Below are positions 16,923 to 37,431 of a stretch of DNA of 64,000 nucleotides, piece by piece. Under the pieces are notes generated by a model. It searched no databases and was not told the DNA's origin. It saw only the letters and a list, made by a program, of their open reading frames with translations. How positions within the stretch are numbered: the stretch's first letter is position 1; the number at the start of each line of letters is the position of its first letter. The translations under genes were made by a program, and so were the position numbers. This DNA is from Parapedobacter lycopersici. GTDB taxonomy: Bacteria > Bacteroidota > Bacteroidia > Sphingobacteriales > Sphingobacteriaceae. The stretch covers positions 310,001-374,000 of the forward strand of contig NZ_JAMSLW010000002.1 in the NCBI RefSeq assembly GCF_024643285.1, given 5' to 3'.

Positions 16923-17262
16923 AGAAGCTACTATCTACTTATTCGTATTGCAAAAATGTAAATTTATTGTTATCAGATAATTTCCAATAAGTTAAGTTAA
17001 TGTTAATAAAAACTAAGTAAAATACAAGGAAATGAATTTCCCTGATAAGGTAATTCCGTCCGCCCAACAGTATTTCATCACTCGGCCTGTAACCTTGTTT
17101 GCACAAAAAATACAAATTCCTTTGTTCGCATCCGAACAATATCTGTTCAATATCGAACACTTTCGCCAAAGCAATAAAAAATAACCCACTGATTCAAAAT
17201 AACTTACTAACTTGGCGTAATAACTGGGATAAGTTATTAACCAATAGCTGAAGCCTAAAGAT
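16923..17262. other. 340-bp divergent intergenic region (pit / permease 17263)
   Basis: AT-rich. It holds a -7-like box for the pit gene near 16951 on the - strand, operator copy A (17131-17160) and the TTGG core promoter (17208-17215) for the permease. Nothing else is recognised. Confidence 0.6.
17131..17160 (+). promoter_or_regulatory. 30-bp permease operator, copy A
   Basis: It carries half-sites CGAACA (positions 3-8), TGTTCA (14-19) and CGAACA (24-29), alternating in orientation. It aligns base for base with four other copies. The TTGG of the core promoter (TAACTTGG, 17208-17215) starts 81 bp after the operator start. The ATG of the permease at 17263 is 132 bp from the operator start. 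Confidence 0.75.
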
Positions 17263-19647
17263 ATGTTGAAGAACTATTTCAAAATCGCTATTCGTAACCT
17301 TTGGCGTACTAAATCATTCACGATACTCAATGTATTGGGGCTGGCCATCGGCATGGCCTCAGCAGCACTTATTCTCCTATGGGTGCATAGCGAATATACA
17401 TTTGATCGGTTTTATGCCAATACCGATCGGCTTTATAAAGCTTATAACCGAGATAGCTTTGATGGTCTTACGATCATGTGGGATAGGACGACAAACCCTT
17501 TGGGGCCGGCATTGAAAAAAGACTATCCTGAAGTGGAACGCACGTCCCGATATACAAAGGGAAACTTGTTGCTCAGTATAACTGATCATTCTTTTAGCCC
17601 TGATGGCGCGTATGCAGATAGCGGTTTTTTCTCCCTGTTTGATTTTGAGTTCATACATGGAAACAAGGGAAGTGCCCTGCATTCCGTCAGTGGCATCGTT
17701 ATTACTCAATCACTAGCCAAAAAGCTATTCGGCAGGAAAGACGCAATCGGAAAAATAATTACCGTAAACAATTCGGATAATTTCACCGTAACCCATGTTA
17801 TTAAGGATCTGCCGGATAACAGTCATTTCAGGAACGTCGAATATTTACTTCCATGGTCTTACCTGGAAAAACTGGGGTTATGGCTCCCCAAAGATTCATG
17901 GGCCAGAGGCCCTGCTACTACATTTGTACTATTAGATAAAAATGCGGATATCTTGGCCGTCAATACTAAAATCAATTCCATTTATAAAACGTATGCCGGT
18001 GAAGATATAGCATTGGCCGCCGATCGCGAAATCGTACTACACCCCGCTGAAAAATGGCACCTTTATGCAGAGCCTGTCAATGGCGAATTGATCGGTGGCC
18101 AACAACTTCGCATGGTTCAGCTTTTTATTGCCATTGCAGGATTCATTTTGCTGATTGCCTGTATTAATTTTATGAACCTGAGTACGGCCAGAAGCGAGAA
18201 ACGAGCGAAGGAAGTAGGCATTAGGAAGGTCATGGGAAGCCGTAAACATACATTAGTCGGCCAATTTCTAGGAGAATCTATCTTGTTGACCATTATAGCG
18301 GGAATATTAGCTTACCTTATACTGGTAATCAGCCTACCTGCATTTAACACGTTGGTACAAAAGGAGCTTTCGTTAGAGACCGATAACCCACATTTTTGGT
18401 TGCTGACGTTCGGCGTTATCCTGTTCACCGGTATCCTTGCCGGTAGCTACCCAGCATTTTTTCTATCTTCCTTCCGTCCTATCCATACCCTCAAAGGTAG
18501 CCAGTATGCCACTCAACATACGTTTTCGCCGCGCAAAATCCTGGTGGTATGCCAGTTTACCTTTTCCATTCTGCTGATTGCCTGTACCCTGATTATCCGA
18601 AATCAAATTGCTTATGGGCAGGCACGGGATACTGGTTACGATCGAAATAACTTAATCCGTGTTACCCTCACTGGAAAGATATCCGAAAACTACAATATCA
18701 TTCGACAACGGCTACTCGATGAAAGAGCGGCCATTGCTTTGACTAAATCCCTCGGCAGTATTACCGGATGGGGCAATGGTTCGTTTGGCTTTTCATGGCG
18801 GGGCAGTACAGAAGCAGACACGAAGCAGGTTTTCGTGGTATTAAGTACCGACATCGACTTCCAAGCGGCTATGGGTGTACAAATCGTACAAGGACGGGAC
18901 ATTGATGTTTATACGTATGCGACAGACTCTGCTGCTATCTTGCTGAATGAGGCTGCGGTAAAGGACATGCGATTGGAGCGTCCTATCGGGGAGGTAGTAC
19001 GGCACGGTGAAGAAGCATTTACAGTGGTCGGCGTGGTTGCTGATTTCATCATGGATTCACCGTATGAGCCGGTATGGCCGTTGATGGTCTTCGGTCCGCC
19101 AATGGGATTCAATTTCACGTACATCAAACTCAATCCGCAAAACAGCACTGCAGAAAACCTTACCATTGCGGAAAAGATTTTTAAAGAATACAACCCCGGC
19201 TACCCGTTCGAATATCAATTTGTCGACGAGGCCTATGCCCAAAACTTCAATGATGAGCAACAGATCGCTACGCTTACCGGACTTTTCTCCGGACTAACCA
19301 TTTTTATCTCGTGCTTGGGCCTTTTCGGTTTAGCCGCTTATATGGCCGAGCAGAGAAGCAAGGAAATAGGTATCCGGAAAGTGTTGGGTGCTACGATAAG
19401 CGGCATTGTCAGACTACTTTCAACCGAATTTGTAAAATTGGTGGCCATTGCCTTTATCATTGCATCGCCTATTGCCTACTACCTCATGAATCGATGGTTA
19501 CAGCATTTCGCGTACCGTATATCATTTGAATGGGATGTGTTTGCGATTACTGGGGCGCTGGCGGTAGCCATCGCGATAGTGACCGTTAGCTTTCAGGCGA
19601 TACGGGCTGCAATAGCCAATCCGGTCGAGTCTTTACGCGACGAATAA
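17263..19647 (+). CDS. Two-unit FtsX/MacB-type ABC transporter permease
   Basis: 794 residues. TM1 lies at about 20-42, TM2-4 at about 285-400, TM5 at about 425-448 and TM6-8 from about 670; it ends NPVESLRDE. Its first periplasmic domain pairs it with the permease at 30145 (NPLGPALKKDYPEVERTSR here, QPLGPALKNEFPEITRTSR there; LLPWSYLE and LIPWSYFE), so these two are siblings 13 kb apart. It stands alone between the Pit transporter and a TPR protein, preceded by operator copy A. The TPR gene follows 114 bp after its stop and may share the transcript. No ATPase is adjacent. The start at 17263 is set by the shared MLKNYFKIAIRNL opening. Confidence 0.93.
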   Translation: MLKNYFKIAIRNLWRTKSFTILNVLGLAIGMASAALILLWVHSEYTFDRFYANTDRLYKAYNRDSFDGLTIMWDRTTNPLGPALKKDYPEVERTSRYTKGNLLLSITDHSFSPDGAYADSGFFSLFDFEFIHGNKGSALHSVSGIVITQSLAKKLFGRKDAIGKIITVNNSDNFTVTHVIKDLPDNSHFRNVEYLLPWSYLEKLGLWLPKDSWARGPATTFVLLDKNADILAVNTKINSIYKTYAGEDIALAADREIVLHPAEKWHLYAEPVNGELIGGQQLRMVQLFIAIAGFILLIACINFMNLSTARSEKRAKEVGIRKVMGSRKHTLVGQFLGESILLTIIAGILAYLILVISLPAFNTLVQKELSLETDNPHFWLLTFGVILFTGILAGSYPAFFLSSFRPIHTLKGSQYATQHTFSPRKILVVCQFTFSILLIACTLIIRNQIAYGQARDTGYDRNNLIRVTLTGKISENYNIIRQRLLDERAAIALTKSLGSITGWGNGSFGFSWRGSTEADTKQVFVVLSTDIDFQAAMGVQIVQGRDIDVYTYATDSAAILLNEAAVKDMRLERPIGEVVRHGEEAFTVVGVVADFIMDSPYEPVWPLMVFGPPMGFNFTYIKLNPQNSTAENLTIAEKIFKEYNPGYPFEYQFVDEAYAQNFNDEQQIATLTGLFSGLTIFISCLGLFGLAAYMAEQRSKEIGIRKVLGATISGIVRLLSTEFVKLVAIAFIIASPIAYYLMNRWLQHFAYRISFEWDVFAITGALAVAIAIVTVSFQAIRAAIANPVESLRDE

Positions 19648-19761
19648 GTCGTGTAATGGCTAATTCCAAAGAATTTAGGATTGACACGCTATAGGGCGAA
19701 TAGTGGAGGAAATCCAGCGGAATTTCACAATAGTATTTTGGTATGTCGAATAAGATTTGTT

Positions 19762-20922
19762 ATGAAAAGAACCGCCTACATAATTAGTATACTTTGCCTA
19801 TGCTTCAATTGTTTCACCGTGTATGCGCAGCAGTCACAGCAACCCGACAACGACAAACTGCTTAAGCTTTACCAAACTCAACAATATCTGGAAGCTGCCG
19901 AATACCTCAAGACGTTTTACTCGGATACCGTGGCAGATCCAGCAGTATTGGATCGATTGGGGTACTGTTATCGAATGGCGGGCGCCTACGCACAAGCGGA
20001 GCCGTATTATCTCCGATTGTATACATTAGACAGCCTACAAGTTTCGACTTTATTGAATTTAGCCACCATTTATGTACAGCGCGGACTTTACGCACCAGCG
20101 ACAACTTATTATCAGCGGATTATTGCATTGGACACGGCCCACGTTACGGCTTATACGGCGCTTTCCGCGATGATGAGAAGGAAAGGTGACCTCCCATCGG
20201 CCTATGCTTATTTGGAACAGGCGAACCATCACCAATCATCAAATAGTGATATAGCCTATGATTTTGCTCAGCTGTGCATAACTTTCGAGCAATATGCCAA
20301 AGCTGACTCCGTTCTGGAGTTGGCACTGACGACAGATCCTGGTCATGGTCTGCTCCTGCTGGGCAAATTGCAGGTGGCCGAAAAATTGGAGAATTACAGC
20401 GATATGGTAACAATCGGAGAACAACTGGTTACACAGGGTGACGAAAGCCAGCAGGTAATGTCACTACTTTCCCGTGGATATTTTCATACTAATGATTTTG
20501 CAAGTTGTCAAGCAACTTACGAGCGATTGCTGGCCATTTACGAACAAATGGGGGAAATTGATTACTATTACCTTGCCATGGCCTATAAGGCAACTAAACA
20601 ATATAAAGAAGGTCTGGCCTGTATGGACAAGGTATTGGAGCTTGCCATCTCACCCAACACGGCCTTCTATTATGGCCGCATAGCCGACCTGCATGATCTC
20701 GCTAATCAACCATCGGCAGCCGCATCGAGTTATCTGCGCAGTTTCCAGTTTGAAACCATACCGCTCCACTATTATAGCCTCGCCGTTATTTATGATCATA
20801 AATTAAACAATCGCCACAATGCCCTTCGGTATTATCGGTTGTACCTCAAGCAAAACCCGCCGATAGAAGAAAATCAATATCGCCAATACGTACAGCAACG
20901 GATCAAAGAGCTGGAACCTTAG
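19762..20922 (+). CDS. Secreted tetratricopeptide-repeat protein
   Basis: 386 residues from the ATG at 19762, which opens a good signal peptide (MKRTAYIISILCLCF, cleavage near VYAQQ); an in-frame ATG at 19681 gives a non-signal-like extension. The mature protein is mostly helix pairs in the TPR pattern: LDRLGYCYRMAGAYAQAEPYYLRLY, LLNLATIYVQRGLYAPATTYYQRII and AYTALSAMMRRKGDLPSAYAYLEQA, with further weaker repeats to the end. TPR proteins serve as protein-binding scaffolds, here in the periplasm. Its place after permease 17263 suggests, but does not prove, a joint role. Base composition is like the neighbouring permease. Confidence 0.85.
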   Translation: MKRTAYIISILCLCFNCFTVYAQQSQQPDNDKLLKLYQTQQYLEAAEYLKTFYSDTVADPAVLDRLGYCYRMAGAYAQAEPYYLRLYTLDSLQVSTLLNLATIYVQRGLYAPATTYYQRIIALDTAHVTAYTALSAMMRRKGDLPSAYAYLEQANHHQSSNSDIAYDFAQLCITFEQYAKADSVLELALTTDPGHGLLLLGKLQVAEKLENYSDMVTIGEQLVTQGDESQQVMSLLSRGYFHTNDFASCQATYERLLAIYEQMGEIDYYYLAMAYKATKQYKEGLACMDKVLELAISPNTAFYYGRIADLHDLANQPSAAASSYLRSFQFETIPLHYYSLAVIYDHKLNNRHNALRYYRLYLKQNPPIEENQYRQYVQQRIKELEP

Positions 20923-20966: not shown

Positions 20967-21827
20967 TCAGAAGGCCGTATTTGATTGCCTGATCTGGAGC
21001 TTATCAGGGTTGCGAACATATAACAGGCGGATAATTTCCGTTTCCGCTGTTTCAACGCATAACACCGAATCGAGTTCGCCTGTTAAACGGTGAATAAAAA
21101 GTATCGCCGGCCTGCCATTCACGAAGGCGGCCCGATATTCGAAGTCGTTAAATTTATTTTCCGGAAGTTGCATAACCCCAAAAAGAAATTTCAGCACCTT
21201 ATCCCGGCCGAGAAGCGGTTTGCGCGCGGCTTCTCGTTTGCCCCCCCCATCACTGAAAAATTCGACATCACTGCGGAGCACTGCTTCCAGTTGCGTACGG
21301 TCTTCACACTGCAATGAAAAAAGGAACGCATCGAGCAGCGAGCGATGCTTTGATGGATCAACGGGTTTGAATCGCTTCCGGCTAAGTTTCTTATGCGCAC
21401 GGTGCAACAACTGCCTGCAATTTTCCACTGACGTACCTATCAGCTCCGCGATATAATGGTATTCCTCGGAGAAACTTTCGCGCAGGATAAATACCGCACG
21501 TTCAACCGGGTTGAGGCGCTCAAGCAGGAAAAGCAGTCCGTATTCAAGTGTTGGAGGTGTTTCAAAATCGAGGGTGATATACGGCTCGGGCAGCCACGAC
21601 CCGATGTAGCTTTCCCGTTGCCTTTTCAACTCCTGAAGACGGTCAATACTTTGGTTAACCGTCATGCGTCCCAGATAAGCCTTTGGCTGTTTAACCCCTT
21701 TTACGGAAGTCCATTTTTCATAGACATCATGAACGACATCTTCCGCATCTGCCACAATACCCAGCATGTTGTAGGCAATATGGAAAAGGTATGGTCGAAG
21801 TGCAATAATTTCTGCTGTCAGTTCCAT
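20967..21827 (-). CDS. ECF41-type RNA polymerase sigma factor with SnoaL-like C-terminal extension
   Basis: 286 residues from the ATG at 21827; the longer frame to 22271 runs antisense-like through the next gene and is rejected. Region 2 covers about 10-75 (AYNMLGIVADAEDVVHDVYEKW) and region 4 about 95-150 (NPVERAVFILRESFSEEYHYIAELIG). The three hallmarks described for ECF41 are all present: WLPEP in the linker (78-82), DGGGK (193-197) and NPDKL (273-277) in the SnoaL-like extension. That extension modulates activity in place of a separate anti-sigma factor. As usual for ECF41, the gene sits with a carboxymuconolactone-decarboxylase-like gene, 19 bp upstream. The three Gly codons of DGGGK lie in a run of eight G (21241-21248), which could slip. 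Confidence 0.93.
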   Translation of the reverse strand: MELTAEIIALRPYLFHIAYNMLGIVADAEDVVHDVYEKWTSVKGVKQPKAYLGRMTVNQSIDRLQELKRQRESYIGSWLPEPYITLDFETPPTLEYGLLFLLERLNPVERAVFILRESFSEEYHYIAELIGTSVENCRQLLHRAHKKLSRKRFKPVDPSKHRSLLDAFLFSLQCEDRTQLEAVLRSDVEFFSDGGGKREAARKPLLGRDKVLKFLFGVMQLPENKFNDFEYRAAFVNGRPAILFIHRLTGELDSVLCVETAETEIIRLLYVRNPDKLQIRQSNTAF

Positions 21828-21846
21828 ATCATTTCCACAAAGATAG

Positions 21847-22470: not shown

Positions 22471-22505
22471 AAATAGGAGAGAAATAATCGATGAGCGTGC
22501 CCGCT

Positions 22506-22535
22506 TCCGAACAGAAGATGTCCGATATCGGACAG
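22506..22535 (+). promoter_or_regulatory. 30-bp permease operator, copy B
   Basis: Half-sites CGAACA, TGTCCG and CGGACA are at positions 3-8, 14-19 and 24-29. The middle and right ones form a perfect 16-bp palindrome (22519-22534). The core promoter TACTTTGG (22583-22590) has its TTGG 81 bp from the operator start. The permease ATG is 132 bp away, the same as for copy A. Confidence 0.8.
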
Positions 22536-22637
22536 TTTTTGCAATATATCCCCTAATAAGCTGCTGATTAAAAAAGGTTTATTACTTTGGCGTAATAACT
22601 GGGGGAAATATGATGTCTGATCTTGCGACCCTATATT

Positions 22638-25031
22638 ATGATAAGCCACTATCTCAAAACTACGTTTCGATACCTGTCCGAAAATAAGGGTTTTTCGATC
22701 ATTAATCTTTGCGGCCTGGCAATAGCGCTTTGTATCGTTTACCTCACCTTCTTTTACATACGGTTTGAATTAAGTTACGACCGGTTCCATACCAATGGTG
22801 AGCGTATTTATCGGGTCAGTACTGACATTGAATATACCTCGGGCACAACGCAAGAAACCAGTGCAGCCCCATTGGCGGGGGCGCTCCTGCAGCATTTTCC
22901 CGAAGTAGAAAATGCTGCCCGTCTATACCTCGACTATTTCATCATTTCCAAAGGTCAGGAGAATTTCGGTGAAGAAACCCTTTTCTATGCTGATTCCGCA
23001 GTGTTCGATGTATTTTCCTTTCCCCTGTTAAGGGGTAATAAGTCCACCGTTTTCGACGCCCCTTTTAACCTCGTCATTTCTGAGACCGCCGCCATTAAGT
23101 ACTTTGGCACGACAGACTGCCTGAACCAGACGCTGCTGCTCAGCGGAACGGTTACTGCCACCGTTACCGGCATAATGAAAGACATTCCATCCAATTCACA
23201 TATTCAAACCGATATGCTGCTGTCTGTATCGTCTTTGTTTTCCTTCCCTGCTAACAGGAACCGGCAGGAAAACTGGCAGCAGTTTGGTTTTCTCACCTAT
23301 GTGTTGCTCAAAGATAACATGGCAATAGCACCGTTCCAAAAAAAGCTTAATGCCTTTGCCCACTCGCTCCCGTTGACCGACCAGCAGCAGTACAGTTTTG
23401 TGATAGAACCTTTAAAGGACCTATACCATCACGGCAGCACCCGGGGCAATAAGGCAGGAACCACCGTTTCCGGTAATTATACCAACATTTATATTTTCGC
23501 TTTTGTAGCTTTTTTCGTGTTGTGTATTGCCTGTTTCAATTACATCAATTTAACCACGGCACTTTCCATAAAAAGAGCAAAAGAAATCGGCGTCAGGCAA
23601 GTTATGGGTGCTACTACTCGGCAGCTGGCGACACAGTTTTTTATGGATGCGCTGGTGCTTTCCACCCTGGGTTTCCTGGCCTCGGTCGCCCTGTCTGCTA
23701 TTGCGATCCCATGGTTTAATGAATTGGCCGGCAAAGCCATCATCAACAATTTTTCAACTTATCTGGCCTATCTTCCTTATGCGTTGGCCATTGCCCTTTC
23801 TACCGGAGTACTTGCTGGCATTTATCCAGCAATTTTCCTGTCCCGGTTCAAACCCATCACCACATTAAAAGGAAAATTCTCCGGCAGCAACCATGGTATG
23901 GTATTGCGGCGCAGCCTTGTCATTACACAGTTTGTCATTTACACACTCTTAACGGTAGCCACCCTTGTCATTTACCGGCAGGTTCATTTCATGCGTAATA
24001 CACAGCTGGGCTTTGAAAAAGCCCACAACATAGCTATTGATTTTCACTACGATACACGGATCAGAAACCATCAGGAGCATGTTAAGCAGTTGCTTACTGA
24101 AATACCGGGTGTAACCGCTGCAAGCTTTTCCGCGTATATCCCCGGCAAGCCCAACCGGGAATTCCCGACATCTATTGAGGGCAGCAACGGCACAATGGAA
24201 GAAATACAGTCCGATGCTTACTTTATCGACAGCGATTTCTTGCATCAATACGGCATCCAGGTCGTAGCTGGGCGCGGGTTTTCAGCAGCAGTTTCCGATG
24301 ATATTCGTACACGCATGCTGGTAAATGAAGCCTACGTCAAGCAGCTGGGCTACAGTAATCCTCAGGATATTATTGGCAAACGATTCAGTCAGCTGGGCAG
24401 CACCGGCGAAATCATTGGCGTGGTAAAGAACTTCCATTTCCAGTCTATGCGTGAAGAAATCCAGCCCCTTGCCATGCAGATCGCCCCTGGCTTTTTTACG
24501 TTTTTAACGCTTTCCATTTCACCGGGCAATATTCCCGCCACCCTCGAAGCGATCGAGCAGAAATGGCACGACATCGCACCAGGCCTTCCGTTGATTTATT
24601 CCTTTACAGATGAAACCTTTGACGCCCAGTATCAGGCAGAAGAACGTTTCGGCAAATTATTTGTCACGTTTGCCGGCTGCTCCATTTTTATTTCCTGTTT
24701 GGGTCTTTTGGGATTGGTATCTTTCAACACCCTGCAGCGCACCAAAGAAGTGGGTGTCCGGAAAGTACTGGGTGCATCCGTTTTTCAGGTAATTATATTG
24801 CTCACCCATGAGTATATCCGGCTGGTAGCAATTGCGTTCCTTCTGGCTGTTCCGCTCGCCTGGGTTGTTATGCATCAATGGCTTGTCAATTTTGCTTACC
24901 GCATTCAGATCCAGTGGTGGATGTTTCTGCTTACAGGAATCAGCGCGGTATTAATTGCCATACTCACCATTGGCTTGCTGGCGATACGGGCTGCTCGGGC
25001 AAACCCGGTAATCGCATTGCGGGATGAGTAA
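22638..25031 (+). CDS. Two-unit FtsX/MacB-type ABC transporter permease
   Basis: 797 residues from the ATG at 22638 (MISHYLKTTFRYL, matching the paralogue openings); a TTG at 22623 is less likely. TM1 lies at about 18-40, TM2-4 at about 284-400, TM5 at about 421-448 and TM6-8 from about 671. It ends NPVIALRDE, a slight departure from the usual tail. The first coupling loop reads SIKRAKEIGVRQVMGA and the second LQRTKEVGVRKVLGAS. It is one of the more divergent members. The next permease starts 55 bp downstream with no visible promoter between, so 22638 and 25087 are probably one operon driven from operator B. The gene is divergent from the ECF41 operon. Confidence 0.93.
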   Translation: MISHYLKTTFRYLSENKGFSIINLCGLAIALCIVYLTFFYIRFELSYDRFHTNGERIYRVSTDIEYTSGTTQETSAAPLAGALLQHFPEVENAARLYLDYFIISKGQENFGEETLFYADSAVFDVFSFPLLRGNKSTVFDAPFNLVISETAAIKYFGTTDCLNQTLLLSGTVTATVTGIMKDIPSNSHIQTDMLLSVSSLFSFPANRNRQENWQQFGFLTYVLLKDNMAIAPFQKKLNAFAHSLPLTDQQQYSFVIEPLKDLYHHGSTRGNKAGTTVSGNYTNIYIFAFVAFFVLCIACFNYINLTTALSIKRAKEIGVRQVMGATTRQLATQFFMDALVLSTLGFLASVALSAIAIPWFNELAGKAIINNFSTYLAYLPYALAIALSTGVLAGIYPAIFLSRFKPITTLKGKFSGSNHGMVLRRSLVITQFVIYTLLTVATLVIYRQVHFMRNTQLGFEKAHNIAIDFHYDTRIRNHQEHVKQLLTEIPGVTAASFSAYIPGKPNREFPTSIEGSNGTMEEIQSDAYFIDSDFLHQYGIQVVAGRGFSAAVSDDIRTRMLVNEAYVKQLGYSNPQDIIGKRFSQLGSTGEIIGVVKNFHFQSMREEIQPLAMQIAPGFFTFLTLSISPGNIPATLEAIEQKWHDIAPGLPLIYSFTDETFDAQYQAEERFGKLFVTFAGCSIFISCLGLLGLVSFNTLQRTKEVGVRKVLGASVFQVIILLTHEYIRLVAIAFLLAVPLAWVVMHQWLVNFAYRIQIQWWMFLLTGISAVLIAILTIGLLAIRAARANPVIALRDE

Positions 25032-25086: not shown

Positions 25087-27435
25087 ATGCTAAACCATAC
25101 TTTACTCCTCATCTATCGAAACTTAAAACGGTACAGCGGTACATTTATCATCAATCTTATCGGTCTCTCGTGTGGCTTAGCCTGCGTGCTGATGATTTAC
25201 CTATGGGTAGCCGATGAACTAAGCTTTGATAAATACCATGAGCGTGTCGACAGGATTTATCAGGTCATGAGTAATACGGCTAGGGAAAACGGTATTGAAA
25301 CAAAAAAGGACACCCCACATTCACTGTCCGAAACCCTGGCCTCAGACATGCCGGCAGTTGAATACGCGGCCACCGTTACGCCGCCGCAGTTTTTCCCTGC
25401 ATTTAGCCTGTCCATTGATGACCGGCAGGTAAAAGCCATAGGAAAATTCGCCGGCACGGATTTCTTCCGGATTTTCTCCTATAAACTTATCGAGGGGAAT
25501 AGTCAACAAGTACTGACGAATCAACATGCTATCGTGTTGTCCAAAAGCCAGGCGATGAATCTGTTTGGCTCCACATCGCGTATTGTTGGCAAAACCGTTA
25601 CTTGGGAGGTCGCCGGTATCCAACGACAATGTGTAGTAACCGGTATGTTTGAGGATATTCCGGCAAACAGTTCCGAACATTTCGACTTCGTTTTACCCTT
25701 CTCCGATTTTTTGGCTATCATGGATATGGAGCCAAGCTGGAATCCTGAACCTTTTAATACCTATTTAGCGGTTAAAGAAGGAGTGGATGTTCATTCATTT
25801 GAGCAGAAGCTTAATACTTACATTGCCAATAAAAGCGATAATAACAGCACCGCTTACTTCCTTAAACCGTACGCTGATAATTACCTATACAGTAAATATG
25901 AAAATGGAAAGGTCGCAGGGGGAAGAATTGAATATGTGCGGATTTTTTCACTTATCGCTTTTTTTGTCCTGGTCATTTCGTCTATAAATTTCATGAATCT
26001 TACCACTGCCAAAGCGTCAAAAAGAGTTAAAGAAATTGGAATAAAAAAAGCGATGGGTGTAAAAAGAGGAATCATTATCGCCCAATTTTTACTGGAAGCA
26101 CTTGCCATAAGCATCTTGGCATTATTCATTGCATTCGTTATTACATTCGCTCTGTTACCACAATTTAACCAGATTACACAGAAAACGCTAAGCTTCCATT
26201 TTAACACCGACTTTTTACTGACAATTTTAGCTATTACTTTGGCTACCGGCTTCTTATCCGGCAGTTATCCCGCGTTATATCTATCGAATTTTAAACCTGT
26301 AACTGTATTGACAGGGAAGATCAGCAAAGGCAAAGGAGAATTATTTACAAGGCAGGGGCTGGTAATATTTCAGTTTGTACTCTCGATTATATTAATTGCA
26401 TCTGTTTTCGTACTCCATCAACAGTTGAATTATATTCAGAACAAGCACCTTGGGGTCAATAAAGACAATGTCGTTCATTTTGAATCGGGCGCTGTCTCCG
26501 AGGCCTTCCTCAATGAAATACGGAATTTACCCGGTGTATTGGATGCTTCGAATATGATCGGAAATTTTATTGTCAGTGATTTCTCATCCAAAGGTAGTAT
26601 TGCTTGGAACGGCAAGCAAATCCCCACACAATCATTCGGTGTAAATTACGGACTGATTGAGACGTTGGGGATAAAGGTTAAGGAAGGCCGATCATTTTCC
26701 AGGGATTTTAGTCGAGGCAACACCCAAGTTATTCTAAATGAAGCCGCTGTCAACACCATGGGCCTTAAGGAAGCTGTCGGCACAATCATCAGTGGTGGGC
26801 GAAATGACATTGAAATAATTGGCGTTGTCAACAACTTTCACTTTCAATCACTTCATGAGGCCATAATGCCCGCTCAAATTCGATTGGATACAACCGGGGC
26901 GACAACTTTTTTCGTGAAAATTGAGAACGACAGACAACAAGAAGCACTCCAGCGTTTAGCCGACCTTTATGAGAAATTCAATCCCGGTTTAACGTTTGAT
27001 TACGATTTTTTAGATCAGGACTATAAAGCACTATATGCCGGAGAACAGCGGATCTCTGTATTAGCGCGCTACTTCGCCGGGCTGGCGATCGTTATTTCCT
27101 GCCTCGGTCTTTTCGGGTTAGCTGCATTTTCCGCGGAGGCGAGATTCAGGGAAATAGCCGTCCGAAAAGTCCTGGGACTGAGTGTACCCGGTGTCGTTTG
27201 GTTATTATCAAAAGGGTTCTTAACGCTTCTGCTGATTGCCATTTGCATTGGTTTACCAATCAGCTACCTACTCATGTCCGGTTGGCTTCAAAACTTTGCA
27301 TTTCGGATCGATCTACAATGGACGTACTTTGTTGCTGCGGCATCACTTGTTGTGGTTGTCGCACTATTTACGGTCGTGATGCAATCGCTTAAAGCAGCAG
27401 TGGTTAATCCAGTGAAATCACTGCGGTCAGAGTAA
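25087..27435 (+). CDS. Two-unit FtsX/MacB-type ABC transporter permease, AT-richer member
   Basis: 782 residues, the shortest complete member. TM1 lies at about 20-42, TM2-4 at about 285-400, TM5 at about 423-447 and TM6-8 from about 658. The coupling loops are unusual: KASKRVKEIGIKKAMGV in the first unit and AEARFREIAVRKVLGLS in the second, where the others have EQRTKEIG. The tail is NPVKSLRSE. The reading frame is visibly richer in A and T than the other paralogues (for example around 26020-26070), which suggests a separate origin or relaxed codon choice. It is second in a likely operon with 22638. Function is inferred only from the family. Confidence 0.92.
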   Translation: MLNHTLLLIYRNLKRYSGTFIINLIGLSCGLACVLMIYLWVADELSFDKYHERVDRIYQVMSNTARENGIETKKDTPHSLSETLASDMPAVEYAATVTPPQFFPAFSLSIDDRQVKAIGKFAGTDFFRIFSYKLIEGNSQQVLTNQHAIVLSKSQAMNLFGSTSRIVGKTVTWEVAGIQRQCVVTGMFEDIPANSSEHFDFVLPFSDFLAIMDMEPSWNPEPFNTYLAVKEGVDVHSFEQKLNTYIANKSDNNSTAYFLKPYADNYLYSKYENGKVAGGRIEYVRIFSLIAFFVLVISSINFMNLTTAKASKRVKEIGIKKAMGVKRGIIIAQFLLEALAISILALFIAFVITFALLPQFNQITQKTLSFHFNTDFLLTILAITLATGFLSGSYPALYLSNFKPVTVLTGKISKGKGELFTRQGLVIFQFVLSIILIASVFVLHQQLNYIQNKHLGVNKDNVVHFESGAVSEAFLNEIRNLPGVLDASNMIGNFIVSDFSSKGSIAWNGKQIPTQSFGVNYGLIETLGIKVKEGRSFSRDFSRGNTQVILNEAAVNTMGLKEAVGTIISGGRNDIEIIGVVNNFHFQSLHEAIMPAQIRLDTTGATTFFVKIENDRQQEALQRLADLYEKFNPGLTFDYDFLDQDYKALYAGEQRISVLARYFAGLAIVISCLGLFGLAAFSAEARFREIAVRKVLGLSVPGVVWLLSKGFLTLLLIAICIGLPISYLLMSGWLQNFAFRIDLQWTYFVAAASLVVVVALFTVVMQSLKAAVVNPVKSLRSE

Positions 27436-27513
27436 GCTTCATTTGAGCCATTTACAGCTGGTTGCATGCTTATCGCTCAGCGATATAAAATCATTGAGGT
27501 GCTATTGCCCGCT

Positions 27514-27543
27514 TTCGAACAGAAGCTGTCCGATATCGGACAG
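27514..27543 (+). promoter_or_regulatory. 30-bp permease operator, copy C (26-bp perfect palindrome)
   Basis: Half-sites CGAACA, TGTCCG and CGGACA are in the same places as in copy B. Here the symmetry extends to a perfect 26-bp palindrome at 27522-27547, the strongest dyad of the five. The core promoter TACTTTGG (27591-27598) has its TTGG 81 bp from the operator start. The ATG is 128 bp away. Confidence 0.82.
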
Positions 27544-27641
27544 CTTCCACAATATATCACCGAATAACTCATTGATTAAAAACAGTTTATTACTTTGGTT
27601 CAATAAATGATTGTGACTCACGGGCCAACAAGACTCACAAC

Positions 27642-30050
27642 ATGCTACACTCCGTAAAAACTGCCATCCGTAGTCTACGTGCCGGGAAACTGTACACGTT
27701 AATTAATATATCCGGGCTTGTATTGGGGGTCACTGCCTGCTTGCTAATGTCTACCGTAGTATTAGACGAGTGGTCGTACGACAAGCAGTGGAGCCGTTCG
27801 GAAAACCTCTACCGAATGGTGTCTGTTAGTCCTGAAGGGTCATCATTTACACGAAAAAACGGTGCAGTGTATGCTGGCGTAGCACCTGCCTTAAAACAGG
27901 ATTTTTCGGAGGTTGAAGAATATGGGACGCTCTACCTACAACCCATAAACCTCAAAATAAATAAAGAAGACCCTATCCCGATCAAATTAAACATACTGCA
28001 CGCAGACAGTGCTGTCCAGTACCTATTAGACATTAATCTGCTTCATCATCAAAACCTCACGCCCGATGGGGTGATACAAAAAATCATCGTGTCAGAAACT
28101 TTCAAGGAAACGTACTTTCCAAATATGGATCCGGTGGGCAAGCGAATATACGATGTGCCGAACTATTCAGAGAAAGCAAATGAATACCTGATTGCCGGCG
28201 TAATGAAAGACCTTCCCGCAAACACCCATTTACGGAGTGACGTGGTGTTATTACAGGACCGGCAGGAAGAAGCACTGAACAAAGGAGATTGGGGAGTATT
28301 CGTACGGCATTATATACTTTTGCGCCCGGGCACAGACCGCCGGGGGTTTGAAGAAAAAATAAACCGATGGTACCAAGCACAGATGGAAGAACAGGACGTT
28401 ACCCAATTCGAACTTCAGCCAATTGGGGATGTATACCTGCATAGTGAAGATGTGCCGGCTTATCAAATCATCAAAGGCAACATCCGGCATAGCTATATCT
28501 TTTCCGTAGTTGCCTTGCTCCTATTATTGATTGCATGTATTAATTTTATTAACCTGAGTATCGCCAGGGTGAGCAGCCGCCTGAAAGAAACGGGCATGCG
28601 AAAGATACTGGGGGCATCCAGACGACAACTTATTGCACAGTTTCTCCTCGAAGCCCTGCTTACTTTTGGAATCGCGGGATGCATTGCTATATGCGTATAT
28701 TACGGCTGTATTCCGTTCGTGGAACAGTATATCGGTCACCCGTTGGCCATCACCCTTGGTGTCAGCTGGACGTATATATTGGGAACAGCAGGCTTCTTAC
28801 TTTGCATATGCTTATTCGCCGGCTTATATCCCGCGTGGTTCATTTCCGGATTCAAAGCCGCGGGAAGCATCAACAAGCTCATAACTTATGGAAATACCAA
28901 TCAAGGATGGCTAAGGAAAAGCCTGGTTGTGGCGCAGTTCAGTATTTCAATTATCGTGTTGGTTGCCATGCTGGTCGTACAGCGGCAGATACACTTTATG
29001 AAGAACAAGGACGTGGGCTATCAGGCCGACGGATTAATCAGCATCAACCATGTTACATGGGATGGTAAAACCGACGTGATCCAAACGGAACTGCAAAAGC
29101 ATCCGGATATTTTATCCGTAAGTTTCAGCAGCTGGCTACCCACACAGGGAGCAGGTTATATGACCCGGAATGTCACTGATCCGAACGATCCGAATAAAAA
29201 AATCGAAGTGTGGTTTATTGCCGGTGATCCCAACCTTGCTGAAACACTCGGATTACGGCTGAAGGAGGGTCGTTACCTACAAACCGATCGTACAGCAGAT
29301 GCCATTGACGCCAATGACCTCGAAGCTGAAGCAAAGGCGATACGGCCAGGCATCATGACAGCCAGTACGGCCCACCTGTTGGGCGTGTCGGAGCTAAACC
29401 AACCCCTTGCAGACGCACGGATTCTGCCGGTTGGTATTGTGGAGGAATTTAACAGCCTGTCTTTGCACCGGGCAACCGAACCCACGGTCATCCTGGGGTA
29501 TCGAGACCCGAAGTCTGGGGCAATGCTGATCCGGGCCAGACCGGGCACCGAGCAGCGGGTCATGCGTGCCATCGGGGATATTTGGAATCAGCTATATCCC
29601 GAAAAGCTGCTGGACATGAAACTCGTTAAAGAAACGCTGGCCGCACAATATGAAACAGAGGAAAAATTACGGACATTATTCAGCCTGTTCAGTGGGCTCA
29701 CCATGTTATTGGCGGCGTTGGGCATATTCGGTCTGATTGTACAGGCCGTGGGCTTGCGCACCAAGGAGATCGGCATCCGTAAAGTACTTGGCGCATCAGT
29801 AAGCGGCATTTTACAGCTGCTTTCAAAAGATTTTGTCAAATTAGTATTGCTCGCCCTGGTCATCGCCTCACCTATTGCCTGGTGGGCGATGAACCGGTGG
29901 CTACAGGGCTTTGCTTACCGTATTGACGTGGAATGGTGGATATTTGTCGTGGCCGGATTGGCAGCAGTGGTCATCGCATTGCTAACAGTTAGTTTCCAGA
30001 CCATAAAAGCCGCAGTAGCCAATCCAGTCGACTCACTACGGGATGAGTAA
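27642..30050 (+). CDS. Two-unit FtsX/MacB-type ABC transporter permease, divergent N-terminal part
   Basis: 802 residues. TM1 lies at about 20-42, TM2-4 at about 282-400, TM5 at about 425-448 and TM6-8 from about 678. The N-terminal two thirds is the most divergent of the set (opening MLHSVKTAIRSLRAGKLY, first coupling loop RVSSRLKETGMRKILGA). The second periplasmic domain has an insertion rich in Ala, Asp and Glu around residues 545-570. By contrast, the last 100 residues from RTKEIGIRKVLGAS onward are close to those of 1373, at DNA level too (ATTGCCTGGTGGGCGATGAA occurs in both). This mosaic look suggests recombination between paralogues. It probably forms an operon with 30145, 94 bp downstream, under operator C. 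Confidence 0.92.
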   Translation: MLHSVKTAIRSLRAGKLYTLINISGLVLGVTACLLMSTVVLDEWSYDKQWSRSENLYRMVSVSPEGSSFTRKNGAVYAGVAPALKQDFSEVEEYGTLYLQPINLKINKEDPIPIKLNILHADSAVQYLLDINLLHHQNLTPDGVIQKIIVSETFKETYFPNMDPVGKRIYDVPNYSEKANEYLIAGVMKDLPANTHLRSDVVLLQDRQEEALNKGDWGVFVRHYILLRPGTDRRGFEEKINRWYQAQMEEQDVTQFELQPIGDVYLHSEDVPAYQIIKGNIRHSYIFSVVALLLLLIACINFINLSIARVSSRLKETGMRKILGASRRQLIAQFLLEALLTFGIAGCIAICVYYGCIPFVEQYIGHPLAITLGVSWTYILGTAGFLLCICLFAGLYPAWFISGFKAAGSINKLITYGNTNQGWLRKSLVVAQFSISIIVLVAMLVVQRQIHFMKNKDVGYQADGLISINHVTWDGKTDVIQTELQKHPDILSVSFSSWLPTQGAGYMTRNVTDPNDPNKKIEVWFIAGDPNLAETLGLRLKEGRYLQTDRTADAIDANDLEAEAKAIRPGIMTASTAHLLGVSELNQPLADARILPVGIVEEFNSLSLHRATEPTVILGYRDPKSGAMLIRARPGTEQRVMRAIGDIWNQLYPEKLLDMKLVKETLAAQYETEEKLRTLFSLFSGLTMLLAALGIFGLIVQAVGLRTKEIGIRKVLGASVSGILQLLSKDFVKLVLLALVIASPIAWWAMNRWLQGFAYRIDVEWWIFVVAGLAAVVIALLTVSFQTIKAAVANPVDSLRDE

Positions 30051-30144: not shown

Positions 30145-32511
30145 ATGTTACGAAACTACATAAAAATTGCCTGGCGAAACTTAGGAAAAAACAAAGGATA
30201 CTCCGCGCTCAACATCGGCGGACTGGCTATCGGTATGGCGGCAGCGTTACTCATTTTACTGTGGGTACAGCACGAGTTAAGCTTTGACATGTTTCACAGT
30301 AAACGCGATCGATTATATATGGCCGGAAACCAGGCAAATATCAACGGTACAATTTCTACCTGGTTTGCCACGCCGCAGCCGCTCGGACCGGCACTCAAAA
30401 ACGAATTCCCTGAAATCACACGTACAAGTAGGCATTACGATCTGGGAAACTCTGTGCTCCTTACCGTCGATGAGAAGAAGCTGATGCCCAAGGGCGCCAT
30501 CATAGATTCCACATTCCTGTCCATGTTCAGCATTGATCTTTTGGCTGGGGATCGCACATCCGCGCTCCGGAACCCAAACGATCTCGTCATCAGTGCCTCG
30601 CTGGCCAATCGGCTCTTCGGCCGTACCGATGTGATTGGCGAAACCGTCAAGCTGGACACCGCTGATCTGGCAACAATAACCGGCATAATGGCCGATATCC
30701 CCGACAACTCCCGTTTCCGTGGCATCGAATACTTGATTCCCTGGAGTTATTTTGAACAGATCGGATACACAGATAATTATTGGGGCAATAATTCCGTCAC
30801 GAATTACGTCGAACTGGCTCCTAAGGCTTCCATCGATGCCGTCAATGCTAAAATACGAGACATTACCATCAGGCACAGCAATGGTACGCAGCAGACCGAC
30901 GTATTCCTGCATGCGTTGCCCGACTGGTGGCTCCGATCTACGTTCGAAAATGGACATATTGCCGGAGGTCGGATTGAGATGGTCAGCCTGTTTGCGGTCA
31001 TCGCCGGGTTCATCCTGCTTATTGCCTGCATCAATTTCACGAACCTCAGCACGGCACGGAGTGAAAAACGCGCCCGCGAGGTAGGTATCCGCAAAATGGC
31101 AGGGGCATACCGGCAATCCCTTATCGGGCAATTCCTAAGCGAATCGATTCTGATCGCGGCCATTTCCGGATTATTCGCCATCGCTATGGTGCTGATGGCG
31201 TTACCGGCCTTTAATACCCTCGTGGAGCGACAACTGGCGATTGATTTTACGAACGGCGGCTTTTGGCTGGCAATGATTGGGTTCATTCTCCTGACGGGCA
31301 TACTGGCAGGCAGCTATCCGGCATTCTTCTTATCGGCATTCAATCCTACAACCGTACTGAAAGGCACGTTCAGAAAAATGCACACGGCTTTCAATCCCCG
31401 CAAAGTACTCGTCGTAGTCCAATTTGCTATTGCAATTGCGCTTATTGTGGGCACAATTGTGATTCATCGCCAGATCCAGCATGGGCAGTCCCGCGATCAG
31501 GGATATGACCAAAGTCAGGTCGTCTATTTGCTGGAGCAGGGACAAATAGCAAAAAACAGCCAATTGATTAAACAAGCTTTGTTAAATGAAGGCATAGCGG
31601 AGTCAGTAACCCGCAGTCTTTCGCCGATTACAGAGGGTTGGAGCAGCACCTGGGGAATTGGATGGCCGGGCAAACAGGCGGATGACCGGACGATGTTCGA
31701 CCGCCTTTTTGCCGATGAACACCCGGTGCGCACATTTGGTCTTTCCTTAATTGAAGGCCGGGACTTTGACCCCTCCCAATACCAAACAGATTCTTCGGGT
31801 GTGCTGCTGAACGAAACTGCGGTAAAGGCCATGGGATTTGAGCGTCCTGTTGGCCAGGTGATCCAGGATAATGGTAAGGATTGGCACGTGGTAGGTGTGG
31901 TGAAAGATTTTATCATGGGCTCCCCCTTCAGCCCGGTTGCCCCGTTGGTCATTGAGGGCGCGGGTGGATTTTTCAATGTGCTGCACATTAAGCTTAGCCC
32001 TACACTCGGTACAGCCGAGGCAATACGCAGGACAGCGGATGTGTTTAAGCGCTATAACCCCGACTATCCATTTGAATATACATTCGTGGACCAGGCTTAT
32101 GCCGAAAAGTTCGCCGAAACGAAGCGGACAGGTACATTGGCCGGGCTATTTGCCTTTCTCACCGTTTTCATTTCCTGCCTCGGGCTATTCGGGTTAGCAG
32201 CCTATATGGCCGAAAACAGGACCAAGGAAATCGGCGTACGCAAGGTGCTGGGTGCATCGGTGTTGTCAATTACCAGGCTGCTGTCCCGGGAGTTTATTTT
32301 ACTGGTATTGATTGCCTGCCTGGTGGCGTTTCCCATAGCTTATTGGGGGATGGATAAATTCCTCCAAACGTTCGATTACCGGATTTCAATGGGTTGGGAG
32401 GTATTCGCCTTAGCAGGTGTTGGGGCATTGCTGTTGGCGCTGGCCACGGTGAGTTCTCAGGCCATCAAAGCGGCCATGGCCAACCCGGTCGAGTCGTTGC
32501 GCGACGAGTAA
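30145..32511 (+). CDS. Two-unit FtsX/MacB-type ABC transporter permease
   Basis: 788 residues. TM1 lies at about 20-42, TM2-4 at about 281-400, TM5 at about 419-443 and TM6-8 from about 664; it ends NPVESLRDE. It is the sibling of 17263 (see QPLGPALKNEFPEITRTSR, LIPWSYFE, EYTFVDQAYAEKF). The second coupling loop is AENRTKEIGVRKVLGAS. A 272-residue frame on the opposite strand (30313-31131) is a shadow. The 94-bp gap before it has no TAnnTTTG box that I can support, so it is likely read through from 27642. A sequence like ATTTACTGGGATA at 30109-30121 might be a weak promoter. Confidence 0.93.
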   Translation: MLRNYIKIAWRNLGKNKGYSALNIGGLAIGMAAALLILLWVQHELSFDMFHSKRDRLYMAGNQANINGTISTWFATPQPLGPALKNEFPEITRTSRHYDLGNSVLLTVDEKKLMPKGAIIDSTFLSMFSIDLLAGDRTSALRNPNDLVISASLANRLFGRTDVIGETVKLDTADLATITGIMADIPDNSRFRGIEYLIPWSYFEQIGYTDNYWGNNSVTNYVELAPKASIDAVNAKIRDITIRHSNGTQQTDVFLHALPDWWLRSTFENGHIAGGRIEMVSLFAVIAGFILLIACINFTNLSTARSEKRAREVGIRKMAGAYRQSLIGQFLSESILIAAISGLFAIAMVLMALPAFNTLVERQLAIDFTNGGFWLAMIGFILLTGILAGSYPAFFLSAFNPTTVLKGTFRKMHTAFNPRKVLVVVQFAIAIALIVGTIVIHRQIQHGQSRDQGYDQSQVVYLLEQGQIAKNSQLIKQALLNEGIAESVTRSLSPITEGWSSTWGIGWPGKQADDRTMFDRLFADEHPVRTFGLSLIEGRDFDPSQYQTDSSGVLLNETAVKAMGFERPVGQVIQDNGKDWHVVGVVKDFIMGSPFSPVAPLVIEGAGGFFNVLHIKLSPTLGTAEAIRRTADVFKRYNPDYPFEYTFVDQAYAEKFAETKRTGTLAGLFAFLTVFISCLGLFGLAAYMAENRTKEIGVRKVLGASVLSITRLLSREFILLVLIACLVAFPIAYWGMDKFLQTFDYRISMGWEVFALAGVGALLLALATVSSQAIKAAMANPVESLRDE

Positions 32512-32565
32512 GTCGCATAACTGTTAGACTCGCTGCGGGATGGGCAGTAAGCCCCCCTGCCCGTA

Positions 32566-32595
32566 ACCGAACAGTTGCTGTTCATATACGAACAG
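32566..32595 (+). promoter_or_regulatory. 30-bp permease operator, copy D
   Basis: Half-sites CGAACA, TGTTCA and CGAACA are at positions 3-8, 14-19 and 24-29. The TTGG of the core promoter (TACATTGG, 32644-32651) is 82 bp from the operator start, one base more than in the other four. The ATG is 301 bp away, so spacing to the promoter is kept while spacing to the gene is not. Confidence 0.75.
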
Positions 32596-32708
32596 ATGAC
32601 ATATTATAATTCCGTCAAAAAATATTGATTATCAATAAGTTAATACATTGGCACAATTTCTATCACTAAAGAGACAGGTTAAATAAATAATGTGTTAATA
32701 GTTGGGAT

Positions 32709-32866: not shown

Positions 32867-35272
32867 ATGTTAAAAAACTACTTCAAAACCGCTTGGCGGA
32901 ACCTGATCAGGCAGCGTGTTTTTTCCGTAATCAACATTGTGGGACTGGCTATCGGTCTGGCAACATGCCTCCTCATCAGCCTATTTGTAATAGACGAATT
33001 GAGTTACGACCGCTTCAACGAAAAAGCGGACCGCATTGTGCGCGTCGTGTTTAAGGGGACGGTCCGTGGTGGTGCCATCAATGAGGCCCATGTCATGCCT
33101 CCCGTGGCCCAGGCACTGAAGGCGGAATATCCCGAAGTTGAGGAAGCAACCCGGATCCGCCGCGCGGGCAAGCCATTTTTTGAAGTGGATGATAAGCTGT
33201 TTTACGAGGAAGAAACCGCCTTTGCCGACGCCAATATTTTCGATGTCTTTACACTGCCCATGCTCCATGGCGACCCGAAAACAGCGTTAACCGAACCTTA
33301 CAGCGTCGTGATCACCGAGCGGGTGGCGAAAAAATACTTCGGAAAGGAAGATGCGGTCGGACAGGAGATCCGTATCAGGGACGACGAAATGCCACTTAAA
33401 GTAACCGGCGTCATCAAAAACATACCCCGGAATTCACACTTCCATTTCGACCTGTTCGCATCCATGGCTTCATTTCCGAATGCCAATTCCACCTCGTGGA
33501 TGGAATCTGAGTTTTTCACTTACCTCGTACTGCGTCCCGGCTATGATTACAAAACGCTCGAAGCCAAACTGCCAGCCGTGTTTGAAAAATACATCAGCCC
33601 GCAGTTCCCCGAAGCGTTCGGCATGAGTTATACCGACTACCGCAAAGCCGGCAATGAAATCGGCCTCCGGCTGCAGCCGCTTACCGATATCCACCTGCAT
33701 TCGGATTTCGCGTACGACCTCAGTGCGCCGGGTGATATCCGGTATGTCTATATCTTTGGCGCCGTTGCCCTGTTTATGCTGTTAATTGCCGGCATCAATT
33801 TCATGAACCTTGCTACCGCCGGGGCATCCAAAAGAGCCAGGGAGGTGGGTGTACGTAAGGTGCTGGGCTCTGGCCGGCGGGTACTGGCCTATCAGTTCCT
33901 CACCGAATCCATCCTGATTGTTTTTATCAGCCTCCTACTGGCCATAGGTATTGTGGTTGCTGCACTGCCCCTCTTCAACCAGCTTTTGGAGGAAACATTC
34001 ACGCTGGATTTTCTGGGCAATGGCTGGGTACTTTCCGCGTTGCTGCTGCTTGGCCTGGTTGTCGGCATCCTATCGGGCAGTTATCCTGCTTTTTTCCTAT
34101 CGGCCTTTAAACCGGTAGCCGTATTGAAAGGAAAGCTGACACCCGATAATAAAGCCATTGGCCTGCGCAGCGGCCTGGTGGTGTTTCAGTTTTTTATTTC
34201 CATCGTGCTCATTTTCTGTACGATGGTCGTATACCGGCAGCTGCAATACATCCAGCATAAAAAGCTGGGATATGATAAGGAGCAGGTATTGGTCCTCCAG
34301 ACGTGGCCGTTGGGTGCCAACGAGGCAGCGTTTAAGCAGCAGCTGCTGCAGGATGCGCGGGTGATTAATGTAACCAGCTCCTCCTATGTGCCCGCGGGAG
34401 CTTCGGGCAACAATAATTTTTTTGTTCATCCTTTCGGGAATCCTTCGGATGGGGTGAAAACCTTACGGTACGACGTGGACGACCACTATCTCCAGACACT
34501 TGGGATCGAACTGAAGGCCGGCCGTAATTTTTCACCGGAATACGGCACCGATTCAGCAGCCGTTATTATCAACGAAGCGGCAGCCGTAGCATTTGGCTGG
34601 AAAGACAATGCGCTGGGGCAGGCGCTGGCAAGTCAGGAAAATAAAGCGCTAAGGGTCATCGGCGTAGTAAAGGATTTCCATTTTAAGTCGCTGCATGAGC
34701 CGATTACACCGCTGGTTATGATGATGAATGCAGGTTCTGGCAACCTCATCGTTAAGATTAAGGCCGGTGACACCGAAGGCTTTCTTCACACGCTTGAAGG
34801 GCGGTATAGTGCCTTCAACCCCGATATACCGCTTAGCTATTCTTTTCTGGATGACCGCATCACCAACACCTACCGGATGGAAATGAAAACAGGGGATATC
34901 CTGGGTATATTCGCCGGACTGACCATCTTTGTGGCTTGCCTGGGATTATTCGGGTTGGCTACATTTATGACCAGTCAGCGCACAAAAGAAATTGGAATAC
35001 GGAAAGTGCTCGGCGCATCGGTAAGCCAAGTGGTGGGTATGCTCTCCTCCACGTTTGTCAAGCTGGTGCTGATTGCGTTCCTTGTGGCAACACCCATTGC
35101 ATGGTGGATCATGAACACGTGGCTGGAAACGTTCGCTTATCGCATCGAAACACAGCTTTGGATAGCGGTATCGGCAGGCGTAATGACGCTGGCCATTGCC
35201 CTACTGACCGTTGGTTGGCAAGCGGTCAAAGCGGCCACGGCCAACCCGGTCGAATCTTTACGGGATGAGTAG
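32867..35272 (+). CDS. Two-unit FtsX/MacB-type ABC transporter permease
   Basis: 801 residues. TM1 lies at about 20-42, TM2-4 at about 293-410, TM5 at about 433-458 and TM6-8 from about 675; it ends NPVESLRDE. In the first domain it shares the MacB_PCD blocks FADANIFDVFTLPML and SVVITERVAKKYFGKEDAVG with family members. The coupling loops are GASKRAREVGVRKVLGS and TSQRTKEIGIRKVLGAS. It is a single gene under operator D, with an unusually long structured leader. Its 3' end is followed by the yceI gene on the other strand, whose terminator lies about 40 bp away. Substrate unknown. Confidence 0.93.
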   Translation: MLKNYFKTAWRNLIRQRVFSVINIVGLAIGLATCLLISLFVIDELSYDRFNEKADRIVRVVFKGTVRGGAINEAHVMPPVAQALKAEYPEVEEATRIRRAGKPFFEVDDKLFYEEETAFADANIFDVFTLPMLHGDPKTALTEPYSVVITERVAKKYFGKEDAVGQEIRIRDDEMPLKVTGVIKNIPRNSHFHFDLFASMASFPNANSTSWMESEFFTYLVLRPGYDYKTLEAKLPAVFEKYISPQFPEAFGMSYTDYRKAGNEIGLRLQPLTDIHLHSDFAYDLSAPGDIRYVYIFGAVALFMLLIAGINFMNLATAGASKRAREVGVRKVLGSGRRVLAYQFLTESILIVFISLLLAIGIVVAALPLFNQLLEETFTLDFLGNGWVLSALLLLGLVVGILSGSYPAFFLSAFKPVAVLKGKLTPDNKAIGLRSGLVVFQFFISIVLIFCTMVVYRQLQYIQHKKLGYDKEQVLVLQTWPLGANEAAFKQQLLQDARVINVTSSSYVPAGASGNNNFFVHPFGNPSDGVKTLRYDVDDHYLQTLGIELKAGRNFSPEYGTDSAAVIINEAAAVAFGWKDNALGQALASQENKALRVIGVVKDFHFKSLHEPITPLVMMMNAGSGNLIVKIKAGDTEGFLHTLEGRYSAFNPDIPLSYSFLDDRITNTYRMEMKTGDILGIFAGLTIFVACLGLFGLATFMTSQRTKEIGIRKVLGASVSQVVGMLSSTFVKLVLIAFLVATPIAWWIMNTWLETFAYRIETQLWIAVSAGVMTLAIALLTVGWQAVKAATANPVESLRDE

Positions 35273-35342: not shown

Positions 35343-35369
35343 ATACGATATTAATAAAATTAACGATGA

Positions 35370-37107: not shown

Positions 37108-37132
37108 GATACAGGTTCATTTATTTGAGGCG

Positions 37133-37140
37133 CAAACTTA
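37133..37140 (-). promoter_or_regulatory. -7 box (TAAGTTTG) of the phnA-like gene
   Basis: It is an exact TAnnTTTG match on the - strand, followed by GCG as is common after this box, 26 bp before the start codon at 37107. Confidence 0.6.
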
Positions 37141-37198
37141 GATAAATTCGCTTTAAGCAGCAAGACAGGTCGCGTGAGGGTCATGGACACTGTTCCCC

Positions 37199-37228
37199 AA
37201 CGGACAACGGGTGTTCGAAAATGAACGC
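37199..37228 (+). promoter_or_regulatory. 30-bp permease operator, copy E
   Basis: It is the most degenerate copy but aligns without gaps: CGGACA at positions 3-8, TGTTCG at 14-19 and GAAC at 25-28. The TTGG of the core promoter (TATTTTTGG, 37275-37283) is 81 bp from the operator start, as for copies A-C. The remaining leader to the ATG at 37432 is about 140 bases. Confidence 0.65.
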
Positions 37229-37431
37229 TTATTTTTCACTATAAAAATAAAATACACTCATTATAAGTTATTTATATTTTTGGTGCAGTTCATGTAATCC
37301 ACTTTCGGTCGATGCAACGGTGCGAATCCGGTGTCGTCTTTTGAAGTGGTTGGCAAAAAAACGGGCTGACTTTACGGGAAGGGCATCACCGAACGGGGCT
37401 GACGGCAGGGCTAACATTAAGGGTTTAAAAC

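Follow-up and report, generated by a model that had tools for sequence, protein, structure and literature searches.

Our results indicate, with high confidence, that a 37-bp block repeated in front of five permease promoters is a sigma-54 enhancer, through which a two-component pair encoded at C12:297308-299982 would switch on an array of genes for pumps resembling peptide exporters. The window is the whole 64-kb stretch of DNA that was analysed, and positions given without a contig name refer to it. The enhancer, the promoter geometry, the family of the regulator, its linkage to the exporter genes, the co-occurrence of site and regulator, and the conservation of the arrangement can all be seen directly in the sequences.

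An earlier note on this DNA had described five 30-bp blocks, and these are present where it placed them, with CGRACA at positions 3-8, TGTYCR at 14-19 and GRAC at 25-28 in all five. The distance from the operator start to TTGG is 81, 81, 81, 82 and 81 bp, as reported, and that to the ATG varies from 128 to 301 bp, provided that translation of the second gene begins at ATG 22638. Instead of the three half-sites previously counted there are four, the extra one lying 8 bp further upstream, and alignment of the five window sites gives a full element of 37 bp, TGYYC(G)-N4-CGRACA-N5-TGTYCR-N4-YGRACA. A scan for the inner palindrome found it twice at each promoter, and the two TGTYCG-N4-CGRACA copies have a constant spacing of 21 bp. 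With up to 5 mismatches, the 37-bp pattern matches exactly five places in the window (mean of 0.02 matches in order-1 Markov simulations), which are listed here with the genes around them.

17123..17159, plus strand: predicted enhancer 1, two palindromes 21 bp apart; would drive the permease gene 17263-19647 and probably the TPR gene 19681-20922
22498..22534, plus strand: predicted enhancer 2; would drive the permease genes 22638-25031 and 25087-27435
27506..27542, plus strand: predicted enhancer 3; would drive the permease genes 27642-30050 and 30145-32511
32558..32594, plus strand: predicted enhancer 4; would drive the permease gene 32867-35272
37191..37227, plus strand: predicted enhancer 5, the weakest match; would drive the permease gene 37432-39831 and the ATPase gene 39927-40592
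17..8896, plus strand: additional permeases, part of the large gene run upstream, which begins with the adaptor gene at C12:301819
17263..19647, plus strand: duplicated MacB_PCD/FtsX permease of 794 aa, with about 8 transmembrane segments and two large periplasmic loops
19681..20922, plus strand: TPR protein, 34 bp after the permease and likely on the same transcript
22638..25031, plus strand: MacB_PCD/FtsX permease; the reading frame opens at TTG 22623, ATG 22638 being the likelier start
25087..27435, plus strand: MacB_PCD/FtsX permease
27642..30050, plus strand: MacB_PCD/FtsX permease, with a MacB_PCD match at C12:337696-338364
30145..32511, plus strand: MacB_PCD/FtsX permease
32867..35272, plus strand: MacB_PCD/FtsX permease
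37432..39831, plus strand: MacB_PCD/FtsX permease
39927..40592, plus strand: ABC ATPase; best NCBIfam model DarD, 245 bits, below the cut-off of 375

The permeases at 17..8896 have no operator of their own within the window. In or near the permease array there are also a sigma-70-family gene with regions 2 and 4 (20967-22271) and a LytTR response regulator gene (13877-14605), and no link to the operator was found for either.

The TTGG regarded earlier as a core promoter corresponds to the -24 element of a sigma-54 promoter, GG-N10-TG. Judged from the alignments, the promoters appear to belong to the sigma-54 -24/-12 class and not to the TAnnTTTG type of Bacteroidota that had been proposed. With this assignment, the operator shifts from the -91 to -61 given originally to about -116 to -80, where enhancer-binding proteins bind; tandem dyads of the NtrC family are expected about 80-150 bp upstream. 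The GG pair lies about 90-93 bases after the operator start at all sites of this genome. The predicted promoters of the window are as follows.

17212..17227, plus strand: TTGGCGTAATAACTGG, class deduced from the promoters of relatives
22587..22602, plus strand: TTGGCGTAATAACTGG
27595..27610, plus strand: TTGGTTCAATAAATGA
32648..32663, plus strand: TTGGCACAATTTCTAT, strong -24 and poor -12 element
37280..37295, plus strand: TTGGTGCAGTTCATGT

GG-N10-TG fits four of these five promoters, the exception being that of the 32558 operator. A point against the sigma-54 class is that their -12 elements are poor (CTGG, CTGG, ATGA, CTAT and ATGT, where the consensus is TTGC); the -12 box, degenerate in the window, is often TTGT, TTGA or TTGC in relatives. 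A window scan with the generic sigma-54 consensus TTGGCAC-N5-TTGC, allowing up to 2 mismatches, recovered none of the five promoters and gave fewer matches than shuffled sequences, and the class was revealed only through the aligned sites and the relatives. The genome encodes one RpoN (E 7e-56), in which the RpoN box ARRTVAKYR is intact.

The candidate regulator and its kinase are encoded about 10 kb upstream of the window, in a cluster ordered kinase, activator, tolC, operator (C12:301594), adaptor, permease and ATPase.

C12:297308-298627: histidine kinase gene
C12:298630-299982: sigma-54 activator gene, beyond tolC
C12:300164-301498, minus strand: tolC gene
C12:301819-303069, plus strand: adaptor gene, followed by a permease and an ATPase gene

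The activator comprises a PF00072 receiver, a PF00158 AAA+ sigma-54 activation domain and a PF02954 Fis-type HTH, all above cut-off, and matches the NtrC1, NtrC and ZraR structures over its full length. The response-regulator domain in PDB 2qr3 matches its receiver with 131 bits over 130 residues, and may come from an orthologue. Four activators with strong sigma-54 domains are found in this genome, and only one sits in the exporter cluster; five weaker PF00158 matches are probably other AAA+ proteins, given their low scores.

The GAFTGA loop of such activators contacts sigma-54. The cluster activator has GAFTDA instead; the loop is GAFTDA or GAYTDA in all 24 aligned orthologues and mostly GAFTDA in a wider set, three members of which have GSFTGA or GAFTGA. 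GSFTGA is the loop in two of this genome's three other activators. The GAFTDA variant counts against a role at sigma-54 promoters, although the conservation of the -24/-12 boxes argues that it may well work. In the kinase, a single hydrophobic stretch (residues 6-55) probably forms two transmembrane helices with almost no periplasmic loop. Such a kinase might sense within the membrane or through a transporter, as Bce-type systems do, although this is speculation.

The genome was searched with degenerate patterns. The strict pattern, which allows up to 3 mismatches, matches eight places, against none for a reversed control pattern; a 36-bp degenerate form, also with up to 3 mismatches, recovered the five window sites, C12:26360, C12:301594 and C17:222626. 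One more site, C19:78188, was matched on one strand with three mismatches, and the remaining three-mismatch matches look like chance. At C12:301594 a single palindromic site has a TGGCA -24 box at equal distance on both sides, and is thus likely to serve the divergent tolC and adaptor promoters. An isolated permease gene (C17:220102-222498) has the C17:222626 operator and a -24 box at the same distance. Two sites precede hydrolase genes: C12:26360-26396 lies before a gene with a weak match to C45 autoproteolytic acyltransferases/hydrolases, and C19:78187-78223 before a gene for a D-aminopeptidase-like serine hydrolase of the beta-lactamase fold. These two sites hint that one signal may set off the breakdown of peptide-like compounds as well as their efflux. 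The permease regulon proposed earlier thus stands as far as it went and was incomplete, as it also takes in the genes for the adaptor, TolC and the two hydrolases, joined in relatives by that of the regulator itself.

Among 61 genomes of the family, the strict site occurs 108 times in 19, and the reversed control in none. Activator orthologues of 49-72% identity are present in 31 of the 61, and 17 of the 19 genomes with the strict site carry one of at least 49% identity (Fisher p = 6e-5). In 14 genomes the orthologue is present and the strict site absent, several of them having variant sites. Most of the sites examined (62 of 75) precede permease, ATPase, adaptor, TolC or activator genes; for the other 13, neither a transporter nor a regulator gene lies within 800 bp, which speaks against the reading. 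TGG is found at +86 to +94 in 57 of 66 directed promoters, mostly at 88-91, against a background of 8.8%. Both site and spacing are kept in relatives, as the check proposed in the earlier note required. In several genera sites lie directly upstream of the activator gene, which suggests that the activator may be autoregulated.

The constant spacing and the position upstream of the promoter support the original reading of an activator-type site. Both would also fit an ordinary class I activator acting on a sigma-70-type Bacteroidota promoter, yet TAnnTTTG is nearly absent downstream of the sites (one case in 66 promoters, near offset 110), GG-N10-TG is concentrated at a single offset (40 of 58 family promoters there vs 7 of 121 elsewhere, p = 8e-19) and the linked regulator is a sigma-54 AAA+ activator; a class I site is accordingly very improbable. 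It is somewhat less improbable, and still unlikely, that the promoters are of the sigma-54 class and the palindromes, which by themselves name no binder, are bound by another protein, either one of the three other activators or a repressor whose site overlaps an unseen enhancer. Two assemblies have sites and no orthologue. One (G015) has 11 sites and lacks activator, kinase and adaptor, all present in sister genomes, which fits one lost or unassembled segment; the other (G045) has two operator sites and, in place of the pair, only the C-terminal part of the kinase (G045:C51:131418-131906, L248), and its regulon seems to be decaying or badly assembled. Against a different binder, the operator adjoins the orthologue gene in several genera, the two co-occur, and the other three activators are unlinked to the cluster.

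The resemblance of the five sites might also be functionless shared ancestry of duplicated permease flanks. The promoters at 22498 and 27506 are indeed, from their sequences, apparent recent duplicates, 95% identical in the operator and 73% in the spacer. However, the 32558 spacer is only 27-39% identical to those of the other window promoters, against 57-70% for its operator, so that flank duplication fails to explain the set, as the earlier note had held. The same site also stands before the non-homologous genes for TolC, adaptor, ATPase, hydrolases and regulator, and its geometry is kept across the phylum; shared ancestry as the whole explanation can hardly be credited. Nor is there any appreciable likelihood of a mobile or repeated REP-like element or an RNA structure: inverted repeats do recur many times per genome, but conservation covers the half-sites and leaves out the loops, the copies fall short of near-identity, and their location relative to the -24 box is fixed. 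An Rfam search of the window gave no match, so the leader RNAs are not known elements.

The enhancer reading extends beyond the family. We compared 80 activator loci from Sphingobacteriaceae, Chitinophagaceae, Flavobacteriaceae, Cyclobacteriaceae, Hymenobacter, Spirosoma, Parabacteroides, Phocaeicola and a few non-Bacteroidota MAGs; the kinase gene is adjacent in 78, an ATPase in 54, a permease in 53 and an adaptor in 48. Across Bacteroidota the regulator-kinase pair is divergent to the adaptor-ATPase-permease genes, and a version of this regulator-pump module recurs throughout the phylum. The strict operator is absent from most distant regulator loci, where looser half-sites with a spacing of 21-22 bp recovered variant operators. 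A tandem site could be read beside a transporter gene in 28 of the 80 loci, with TGG at 89-92 bp in 21 and at 101-102 bp in 6; these two distance classes differ by one helical turn. As a deviation that counts against the reading, adaptor promoters frequently lack one base between the boxes, with GG-N9-G(C) in place of N10.

Upstream of the activator gene, relatives of the Mucilaginibacter and Chitinophagaceae type (L170, L171, L173, L174, L176, L177, L180, L183 and L232) carry a GTATC/GTAAC-type sequence in one half of each palindrome, with the 21-22 bp spacing and the -24 distance retained. Nature has here altered the operator, and changes in the HTH could be compared with this shift. Activator-kinase pairs of 48-52% identity also occur in Acidobacteria, Zixibacteria and Latescibacterota MAGs (L200, L224, L225, L227 and L228), with tandem sites and exporter genes in L200 and L224, which suggests either that the module has moved between phyla or that the contigs are mis-binned.

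From these data we infer binding by the cluster regulator, activation and a physiological role as follows. The pair consists of a membrane histidine kinase and an NtrC-family response regulator. Once phosphorylated, the regulator would place two dimers on the tandem palindromes, both on the same face of the DNA at a separation of 21 bp or two helical turns, and assemble its AAA+ ring. It would then contact the sigma-54 RNA polymerase poised at the TTGG-N10-TG promoter, where the -24 box begins about 88-92 bp from the first base of the enhancer. The switch would turn on the adaptor, TolC, the ATPases, most or all of the 14 duplicated permeases and the two hydrolase genes, and its target would be a DarBCD/MacAB-like exporter. 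The closest models for the adaptor, ATPase and permease are DarC, DarD and DarB/ADOP, and by this analogy alone the likeliest role, which we hold at roughly even odds, is to export peptide-like or envelope-active compounds or to protect the cell from them. More tentatively, the whole may be a phylum-wide GAFTDA sigma-54 system that uses rigid, helix-phased spacing (about 90 or 101 bp) and no flexible looping, in which membrane-active peptides induce a combinatorial DarBCD-like permease array together with peptide-type hydrolases, and in which the kinase, nearly devoid of an extracytoplasmic sensor, may take its signal from the transporters themselves.

Many FtsX/MacB-like permeases of Bacteroidota that are still unassigned thus gain a predicted common regulator, a readable DNA code and the question of an inducer. 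The promoters form a natural sigma-54 series in which the enhancer distance is fixed by helical turns, useful for studying the short-range reach between AAA+ activator and polymerase. Bacteroidota that carry the regulator live in soil, in water and in the gut, among them Parabacteroides and Phocaeicola, for which the efflux of peptides and drugs is of importance.

The system resembles the NtrC, ZraSR, AtoSC and PrsK/PrsR regulons in joining a receiver, an AAA+ domain and a Fis-type HTH with an adjacent cognate kinase gene, and NtrC-family sigma-54 regulons generally in its tandem palindromic enhancer upstream of a -24/-12 promoter. The activator is homologous to the AtoC, ZraR and PrsR models, below the NCBIfam equivalog cut-offs; its best model is PEP_resp_reg (357 bits vs a cut-off of 502.6). 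It departs from these regulons in having GAFTDA for GAFTGA, its own operator TGTYCG-N4-CGRACA and a permease array as target. In classical sigma-54 systems the distance between enhancer and promoter is loosely variable, whereas here it is fixed at one or two helical positions; such rigid phasing is not what sigma-54 enhancers usually show, and of all the features it is the one of greatest interest.

The exporter shares with the darobactin exporter DarBCD a separate duplicated permease, adaptor and ATPase, although many permeases accompany each adaptor here. Identity with DarBCD was rejected, as all scores are below the curated cut-offs (permease 135 of 700 bits for DarB, adaptor 184 of 450 for DarC, ATPase 300 of 375 for DarD). 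The permeases also resemble ADOP (TIGR03434) and MacAB-TolC, with two FtsX and two MacB_PCD domains in about 800 aa; unlike these, the cluster has a single adaptor and a single TolC for about 13 permeases. They are not ADOP itself (290.7 bits over the whole length vs a cut-off of 622) nor MacB, since they carry no ATPase domain and the ATPases are separate, unfused genes.

A search of open-access papers found no description of the regulator, the enhancer or the geometry, and to that extent the statement that no such system had been described holds for site and regulator. It does not hold for sigma-54 control of FtsX-family permeases, which has been predicted: COG0577 permeases are enriched among predicted sigma-54 targets in Bacteroidia, in what was called the first such link (PMC12316311, 2025). 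The same sigma factor and permease class appear there and here. That prediction is a COG-level enrichment of promoter predictions which, in the available part of the paper, names no activator, enhancer sequence, gene module or spacing rule, and we therefore rate the present system, within that bound, as new among sigma-54 two-component systems and unusual in its fixed geometry.
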